This document shows, piece after piece, positions 58,044 through 60,602 of a DNA stretch of 64,000 bases. Source of the stretch: an uncultured Collinsella sp. Its GTDB lineage: Bacteria > Actinomycetota > Coriobacteriia > Coriobacteriales > Coriobacteriaceae. The translations under genes and the position numbers were made by a program. Position 1 is the first letter of the stretch. Each line of letters opens with the position of its first letter. The notes beneath the pieces were generated by a model. It did not search any database, was not told the origin of the DNA, and was given only the letters and a program-made list of their open reading frames with translations. The stretch is from NCBI GenBank assembly GCA_947507155.1, contig CANNOC010000013.1, forward strand, positions 1 through 64,000. The letters are read 5' to 3'.

Positions 58044-58229
58044 GCGGGTTTCTTTACCGAGTTCTGATGGGAGAAGTGAATTTTTTGACACTAACATTGA
58101 ATATTTGCCCTGTTGACCGCGGGTGTTCTTTTTGCTAACACGCCATGAGGACATGCGCGCGTCCCAACATCCCAAAATCACAGTCTGTTCGCTTTACAAT
58201 ATGCAAACATGCGTTCGATAATAGGGGAC

Positions 58230-58568
58230 ATGGAATATCGACAGACAGATGGCAAAACTCGGCGCGTGCACAAGCAGTATGTGGACGTCGTGGCCCGCAT
58301 CCTCGCGGGCGGACAAGTCGTGCCGGTTACCGTCTGCTGGGTCGACGGCCGCTGTTTTACGATTGACGAGATTGTCTCGTCCACCGGTTTTGGCCTAACG
58401 GTTCACGGCATTCGTACGGCGACCTATAAGGTTCGTTTTGGCGGGCATGCGACCGAACTGTATCTGGAAGAACAGGCGCGCGAGCGACCGGATGGCTCGC
58501 AGGCTCATCTGATGCGTTGGTGGGTGTGGGCATTCGACCGTACACTCGAGAGTGAACGCCGCAGGTAA
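58230..58568 (+). CDS. small hypothetical protein
   Basis: A 112-residue, mixed alpha/beta, basic protein that I do not recognise. It has an IDEIVSSTGFGLTVHGIRTATYKV central block followed by a beta-rich segment ending at a Trp-rich RWWVWAFDRT near the C-terminus (quoted in parts). No signal peptide or membrane segment. AGGGGAC lies before the ATG at 58230, preferred over an ATG at 58209. Divergent from pit across a 248-bp gap in which no other gene was seen; the next gene starts 83 nt downstream. Confidence 0.6.
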   Translation: MEYRQTDGKTRRVHKQYVDVVARILAGGQVVPVTVCWVDGRCFTIDEIVSSTGFGLTVHGIRTATYKVRFGGHATELYLEEQARERPDGSQAHLMRWWVWAFDRTLESERRR

Positions 58569-59483: not shown

Positions 59484-60602
59484 ATGGCAGACGTTGACAA
59501 CAGGAACCGTAACCGCAGACCCAATCGCGCAGGGCAGCCCAATCCCAAGCGCGAGGCCCGTGCCAAGGCCGCCGAGCGTCACGTGGCGACTGTGTCCGAA
59601 GCGTGCGCCAAGGATATCGAGCGCTCGCTTGCAGGCGTGCGCGAGTTCGACGGTATGCCTGCCGGCTTTGTCGCGGCGATGAAGGCCAAGGCCCAAGCGG
59701 CTGCGGCTGCCGAGGAGCAGGTCGCCGAGGAGTCTGAGGCCGCCGAGGTTGCGTCTGCCGAGGCTGAGGCCGTGGCCGAGCCTGCGCCCGCAGAGGAGGC
59801 CGCGGAGACCGAGCCTGCGCCTGCCGCTGAAAAGCCTGCTCCGGTCCTGCCCGAGGTCACCGTGCTCGACGCCTCTGCCACGCAGGCCATTCTGGATAAC
59901 GGCCGAGGCTACGCGCAGTTCTGCGACATGGCCGTGCTCGCCTTTGCCTCGTTCACCAACCCGGGCGGTGGCTACATCCAGGGCTATCTGGGCCAGGAGG
60001 CCACGCTCTGTGCCGATTCGTACCTGTACAACGTGCTCGATAAGCAGCGCAAATGGTACGGCGAGAACCGTCGCCGCAACATCAACTGCGAGCTTTACCG
60101 CAACCGTGCGCTGGTGGTGCCTGCGGTGCGCTTCGACCGCAATCACGTACATGCATATGCTGACGTGATCGTTGCCGCCGCGCCCAACGCCAAGCGCGCT
60201 CGCCAGGAGTATCGCGTGGGTGACGATGCCTTGCTGGATGCCCTGCGCGATCGCATCCGCTTTGTGCTTGCCATCTGCGATGAGCTGGGTCGCGAGAAGC
60301 TCGTGCTGGGCGCTTGGGGCTGCGACAACAACGGCTTTGACGCCGAGGCCGTGGCTGAGCTCTTCCGCAAGGAGCTTGCGTCGGGCGACTTCAAGGTCAA
60401 GCAGGTCTTCTTTGCCGTGCCTTCTACGCGTTGGGACGAAGACTTTGCCAAGTTCGAGCACGTGCTGGCAAACTTCCCCGAGCGCAACGAGGAGTCCTAT
60501 GCCCAGGTTGCCGCTCGCGCTGCGGCTGCTCGCGCCGCCGAGCAGGCCCAGGCTGCTGCCGAGGACGATGAGGACGAGGACGATTGGCGCAAGTACCTGT
60601 AA
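59484..60602 (+). CDS. microbial PARG-like (TIGR02452) protein with altered signature
   Basis: A 372-residue protein. The first 125 residues are basic then Ala/Glu-rich low complexity; the rest is a macrodomain of the microbial PARG family, seen in FASFTNPGGGYIQGYLGQEA. The PARG signature is GGG-x(6-8)-QEE. Here it reads Gly161-163, then Gln171-Glu172-Ala173: the second Glu, catalytic in characterised enzymes, is Ala. It may bind ADP-ribose without hydrolysing it, or act on another ligand. The C-terminus is acidic. AAAGGTGA precedes the ATG. Confidence 0.8.
   Translation: MADVDNRNRNRRPNRAGQPNPKREARAKAAERHVATVSEACAKDIERSLAGVREFDGMPAGFVAAMKAKAQAAAAAEEQVAEESEAAEVASAEAEAVAEPAPAEEAAETEPAPAAEKPAPVLPEVTVLDASATQAILDNGRGYAQFCDMAVLAFASFTNPGGGYIQGYLGQEATLCADSYLYNVLDKQRKWYGENRRRNINCELYRNRALVVPAVRFDRNHVHAYADVIVAAAPNAKRARQEYRVGDDALLDALRDRIRFVLAICDELGREKLVLGAWGCDNNGFDAEAVAELFRKELASGDFKVKQVFFAVPSTRWDEDFAKFEHVLANFPERNEESYAQVAARAAAARAAEQAQAAAEDDEDEDDWRKYL

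Follow-up and report, generated by a model that had tools for sequence, protein, structure and literature searches.

Characterized bacterial PARGs are the reference against which the protein described here can be read. In Deinococcus radiodurans PARG, according to the available text of PMC6445106, the pyrophosphate is contacted by the backbone nitrogens of Gln110, Gly224, Gly226, Val227, and Phe228, and an E112A mutant has undetectable activity while its affinity for ADP-ribose is little or not changed. The available text of PMC7050489 lists as features of active PARGs a hydrophobic G[AV][FY] patch in the diphosphate loop and an Asn or Asp before the GGG motif, which we mapped to the LDFAS/LNFAS position. 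Two proteins of this type, SCO0909 of Streptomyces coelicolor and DRB0099 of D. radiodurans, are described in the available text of PMC11833690 as immunity proteins that remove ADP-ribose from RNA.

The window analyzed here, a 64,000-nucleotide stretch from an uncultured Collinsella sp., encodes a PARG-like protein of 372 aa (59484..60602, + strand). The protein scored above the curated cut-offs of the Pfam and NCBIfam profiles for microbial-type PARG (PF10021, 50.5 bits, cut-off 23.5; TIGR02452, 131.6 bits, cut-off 50), and both profile scores and the fold place it in the TIGR02452 family by homology. A Pfam scan with E values up to 1 returned PF10021 alone, with the DUF4804 profile unmatched, and the gene was the single PF10021 match in the whole 2.22 Mb genome. 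Its closest named relatives are from Collinsella, mainly C. aerofaciens. The genus search matched the gene in 40 of 43 genomes, with no match in the other three, and there were no internal stops across the matches in the 40. The preliminary description had reported one substitution at the catalytic site; what we observed is larger, a lineage-specific and conserved remodeling of the whole ADP-ribose site.

An AlphaFold2 model of the protein, built from an 88-row alignment (mean pLDDT 91.5, pTM 0.87), predicts the macrodomain fold of PARGs together with accessory helices at the N-terminus. The model resembled Thermomonospora curvata PARG (3sig; Z 31.2, rmsd 2.0, 242 residues aligned), the crystal of its E115A mutant (3sij; Z 31.1), and the D. 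radiodurans PARG structures (PDB 5zda-5zdg; best Z 29.0). The N-terminus had been described as 125 residues of low complexity. This holds for residues about 63-121 (59670..59846, +), an Ala/Glu/Pro-rich linker whose length differs among orthologues, but not for residues about 20-57 (59541..59654, +), which are conserved and are predicted with confidence as helices belonging to the fold of bacterial PARGs (helices 21-40 and 42-50 of the model; pLDDT of the block about 97-98); the structural alignment to 3sig starts at model residue 23.

The catalytic-loop motif spans residues 160-173 (59961..60002, +) and reads P-GGG-YIQGYLG-QE-A from Pro160 to Ala173, which bears out the earlier statement that the GGG-x7-QE signature is intact. 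Its last residue, Ala173 (codon GCC, 60000..60002, +), takes the place of the second, catalytic Glu, also as first described: in a sequence alignment, Q171-E172-A173 corresponds to Gln110-Glu111-Glu112 of D. radiodurans PARG. The first Glu of the pair, Glu172 (59997..59999, +), is retained and was invariant in 88/88 rows of alignment A1. Realignment does not rescue the second Glu; by eye, QEATLC and QEEALC both have two residues from QE to LC, so no single gap works. When close homologues were aligned, a check that had been proposed from the start, Ala173 was fixed in all 21 distinct C. aerofaciens-group proteins, with synonymous variation in its codon (GCC in 18, GCG in two, GCT in one). Fixation together with synonymous codons rules out a strain mutation or a sequencing error as the source of Ala173. 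All 21 proteins carry GGG-x7-QEA in place of the GGG-x6-8-QEE expected of an active PARG. Homologues with QEE had been expected to signal a strain mutation, and such homologues do exist, as the more distant orthologues mostly have QEE, but the close homologues all have Ala; the pattern is thus that of a lineage-specific replacement. Because E112A abolishes activity in D. radiodurans PARG and the Glu-to-Ala change is fixed here, canonical PARG catalysis is very likely lost, and judging from the sequence we would hardly expect this protein to hydrolyze poly-ADP-ribose by the known Glu mechanism.

The distribution of catalytic motifs was compiled for the loci fetched among the 167 class-level genomes that matched TIGR02452; for some genomes, the group label is our own assignment, based on which named loci they cluster with. 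The 40 matching genus genomes carried QEA (21), QEE (12), QEQ (six), and FEQ (one), and 57 other distinct Coriobacteriaceae/Atopobiaceae orthologues had QEE (38), QEQ (18), and FEQ (one). Canonical members (viral contigs, Streptomyces-like genomes, and Coriobacteriia paralogues) had QEE in 66 of the 67 readable distinct cores among 69 examined. The 36 Eggerthellaceae-type relatives were mostly PEQ (31), with two QEE and one each of PEC, SEQ, and PEA. Nearly all of the Eggerthellaceae-type orthologues L129-L158, along with L038, have GPEQ for AQEE and frequently GGA or GGN in place of GGG; their acidic tail contains LPEG(V/I)T, and they constitute a second large lineage that lost the PARG signature.

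A tree of 140 rows was built leaving out columns 173 and 281-283 and included 140 of 175 distinct cores, the 35 omitted being viral contigs (including L247) and a few Streptomyces-like genomes. The QEA rows formed one clade (SH-aLRT 100, stem length 0.37), and the catalytic motif labels required at least 15 changes on the tree. One QEQ protein (L032) was omitted from A1, the tail count, the column test, and the tree, and L131 and L139 were omitted from the tail count and the tree, as the diphosphate loop was absent from the stretch used. Gaps fall on a catalytic or loop column in L169, L243, L228, and L244. Two Collinsella-genus orthologues, L105 (FEQ/GCDASG) and L108 (QEQ/GCDEAG), look like separate degenerations of the same two loops. 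A canonical-type TIGR02452 protein from another Coriobacteriia genome (L090:1468-2331, +) combines QEG with GCDSNG, similar to QEA with GCDNNG. A partial QEA/ENN copy at the start of a viral-collection contig (L247, IMGVR_UViG_2857861838_000001) is probably Collinsella host DNA beside a predicted provirus.

The second altered loop is the diphosphate-binding loop, G279-C-D-N-N-G-F-D286 (60318..60341, +), where canonical members have GCG-V/A-F; Gly226-Val227-Phe228 of the D. radiodurans enzyme are Asp281-Asn282-Asn283 in the PARG-like protein. All 21 QEA-clade proteins have D/E-N-N for G-V/A-F (residue 281 is Asp in 17 and Glu in four; Asn283 in 21/21), and the hydrophobic G[AV][FY] patch of active PARGs is missing from every one. 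Within the tree set, G281 and F283 were present in 70/70 QEE rows, and F283 was found in 18/19 QEQ rows and in 0/51 other rows, two of which have Tyr. The position preceding the GGG motif is Ala153 (59940..59942, +), rather than the Asn or Asp of an active PARG. Most orthologues have Asp and canonical members have Asn at this site (D 57, A 20, N 1 in Coriobacteriaceae/Atopobiaceae orthologues); the change to Ala is seen in 20 of 21 clade proteins, and the single exception keeps Asp. Glu172, Gln171, GGG, and Ser156 are retained. Conservation in ≥90% of the 57 non-QEA orthologues was seen at 96 core columns, of which six were replaced in the QEA clade; five of the six fall among the 16 pocket columns (hypergeometric p 0.0004, a descriptive value since the pocket set was defined knowing the motif). 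At a 95% conservation threshold, four of five changed columns were pocket columns (p 0.002), and at 100%, one of 44 columns was changed, that one in the pocket (p 0.16).

Strong purifying selection acts on the altered core. Across the 21 clade sequences, the core had a dN/dS of 0.022. The catalytic-loop stretch was lower still (0.0097), the tail region came to 0.047, and the residues ahead of the core to 0.23. In a comparison over 19 sequences, the core had a value of 0.021 (0.161 over the entire gene, variable linker included), next to 0.024 for ThiC, 0.032 for a phosphate transporter, 0.040 for Bax1-I, 0.041 for ThiD, and 0.059 for GDSL. Values in the other motif groups were 0.08 (n=8) and 0.17 (n=5) for QEE and 0.19 (n=5) for QEQ, all dN/dS estimates being from simple pairwise counting rather than a codon model and from groups unequal in size and depth. 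The QEA core lies below the QEE and QEQ groups, so the site that looks dead sits in the most constrained group.

The protein ends in an acidic C-terminal tail, DDEDEDDWRKYL (60564..60599, +), that closes with DWRKYL. An acidic stretch followed by a DW(R/H)xYL ending was present in 78/78 distinct Coriobacteriaceae/Atopobiaceae orthologues, whatever their catalytic motif. A different ending, LP(E/D)G(V/I)T within the last 30 residues, was found in 28 of 31 Eggerthellaceae-type proteins, and acidic residues precede it in the examples printed. Neither tail type occurred in the 14 canonical paralogues. A search of the organism's own genome with the tail DNA pattern gave a single match, the PARG-like gene, and no second protein there shares the tail. 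The tail is better kept than the catalytic Glu, which suggests that docking via the tail may be what the tailed PARG-like orthologues have in common.

The genome neighborhood was uninformative. A Bax1-I membrane protein is encoded upstream and a GDSL hydrolase downstream, followed by thiD and then a gene that we take, from its family, to be ThiC-like. Bax1-I and GDSL flank the PARG-like gene in 18 other C. aerofaciens-group loci, but in the examined loci of more distant relatives they do not. Certain other loci, from Collinsella and Enorma, still have thiD and thiC nearby, but not the remaining neighbors. As the neighborhood is kept in near relatives only, neither an operon nor a neighbor suggests a function, and guilt by association was set aside. 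A 119-aa ORF at 58209-58568 (+) of the window is conserved in 18 other C. aerofaciens-group loci and has no Pfam match. A phage or defense origin was likewise rejected, with no PHROGs or PADLOC matches; the PADLOC-DB anti-phage defense profiles gave 0 families at E up to 0.01 against the PARG-like protein. The 18 phage records are all distant relatives with identity below 60%, none spanning 80% of the query. Unannotated megaphage genomes, the Prevotella Lak phages (hits H11-H20), encode PARG-like proteins with ~36% identity to the Collinsella one over half its length.

The preliminary description suggested an ADP-ribose-linked process in this organism and proposed a search for ADP-ribosyltransferases. 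That search found no DarT or Tpt1/KptA in the genome, nor MacroD-type macrodomains (PF01661), ARH, or NADAR, all of which were detected in control genomes; PARP also gave no match, in a search that had no positive control. One sirtuin (SIR2) gene was present. With the families searched absent except for this sirtuin, the suggested process is not supported. Two other C. aerofaciens-group genomes (G003 and G012) do contain a PF01661 macrodomain.

In our favored reading, the PARG-like protein is probably a microbial-type PARG that became fixed as a pseudoenzyme and serves in binding or as a scaffold, without catalysis. Changes to the catalytic Glu and the diphosphate loop would date to the C. aerofaciens-group ancestor, the rest of the fold being kept; the Asp before GGG would also have been replaced in all but one sequence, and the altered pocket would then have been frozen by purifying selection. 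Ordinary ADP-ribose binding is probably lost or strongly changed, because an acidic residue 281 (Asp or Glu) and two Asn replace the G-V/A-F that contacts pyrophosphate and ribose. As for the scaffold or binding role, the chances seem roughly even that the cleft takes another ligand or a protein or nucleic-acid surface and that the DWRKYL tail docks a Coriobacteriia-wide partner. Neutral decay of a gene that had become dispensable would fit the repeated loss of the catalytic residue in the family (QEQ, PEQ, FEQ, PEA, QEA) and the lack of a match in three of 43 genus genomes, but with a dN/dS of about 0.02 in the core and about 0.01 in the first loop, an invariant tail, and no internal stop in the 40 matching genomes, we consider it highly improbable. 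A broader reading, which we put forward tentatively, is that the tailed Coriobacteriia PARG-like protein could be a housekeeping docking protein selected for its acidic C-terminal peptide and not for hydrolysis. Its active site would be free to vary and would have been dismantled repeatedly (QEQ, PEQ, FEQ, QEA). In the C. aerofaciens group, the anion-binding loop, now acidic (D/E-N-N-G-x-D), would bind something else, which might be a cation or a basic surface, and ADP-ribose would no longer be read.

The retained Glu172, Gln171, GGG, and Ser156 speak against a pseudo-PARG, as they may allow some ADP-ribose-type binding or residual activity, and the neighborhood lends that reading no support. 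One alternative is a reader of ADP-ribose, as raised in the preliminary description, or of O-acetyl-ADP-ribose, which would have lost catalysis, kept binding, and recognize ADP-ribosylated targets or the sirtuin product. The analogy to D. radiodurans E112A, which binds ADP-ribose nearly like the wild type in the available text of PMC6445106, favors this idea, as do the crystallization of the T. curvata E115A mutant (3sij), these same kept residues, and the SIR2 gene. E112A alone spares affinity, and the pyrophosphate contacts are made by backbone NH groups that side-chain changes need not remove, which also argues against a loss of binding. The reader is nonetheless weakened by Asp/Glu-Asn-Asn at the pyrophosphate contacts Gly226-Val227-Phe228 in 21/21 clade proteins (Asp281-Asn282-Asn283 here) and by the failure to find the searched ADP-ribosyltransferase and ADP-ribose hydrolase families in the genome (PARP lacking a positive control), and we regard it as unlikely. 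Still less likely in our judgment is a hydrolase with relocated chemistry, in which the new acid at 281 or the retained Glu172 would be catalytic on an altered substrate. Acidity at 281 is maintained (Asp 17, Glu 4), an acid at 281 without Phe283 recurs in other non-QEE proteins (L090 QEG/DSN, L105 FEQ/DAS, L108 QEQ/DEA), and MavL, in the available text of PMC10951314, is an example of a macrodomain employing other acidic residues. However, the acid at 281 needs just four changes on the tree, an independent-pairs test of Phe283 loss against QEE/QEQ loss had three usable pairs (p 0.25), and the protein lacks the aromatic side chain by which the distal ribose is positioned; both glutamates are critical according to the available text of PMC4030884. 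A QEE protein (L217, GCEVF) also has Glu at 281. Coupling of the acid at 281 to QEE loss is suggestive, but with too few independent events and L217 as a counter-example, and was rejected as a case of relocated catalysis.

The pseudo-PARG reading matters for annotation, since the family names PARG and 'TIGR02452 family' imply ADP-ribose turnover in common gut bacteria, and the C. aerofaciens-group protein should not carry a hydrolase annotation. The tailed QEE, QEQ, QEA, and PEQ orthologues form a natural series for studying the role of a macrodomain once its ADP-ribose chemistry is gone, and the acidic tail offers a handle for finding a partner. Pseudoenzymes within known macrodomain families have precedent; this instance, and the way it recurs in Coriobacteriia, did not turn up in the literature searched, where a fixed pseudo-PARG from that class was described in no title or opening part of an abstract. 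The closest comparisons are the following. The Arg-specific DUF4804 macrodomains MavL and Larg1 have, in the available text of PMC10951314, a PARG-like topology without QEE, as here, with motifs that differ. SCO0909 and DRB0099 are of the same DUF2263 family, and their activity, in the available text on these proteins, needs the catalytic Glu that the PARG-like protein lacks. With D. radiodurans PARG (DRB0099) it shares the fold and the GGG, Gln-Glu, Ser, and Gly contacts; it differs in the second Glu (Ala), in DNN for GVF, in the Ala at the Asn of LNFAS, and in the DWRKYL tail. T. curvata PARG 3sij, an E115A mutant crystal according to its PDB title, has the same Glu-to-Ala change, although in Collinsella the change is natural, fixed, and joined by loss of the diphosphate-loop motif. 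As Ala173 falls on Glu112 and E112A is inactive, this natural protein carries the very substitution that laboratories use to inactivate PARG.
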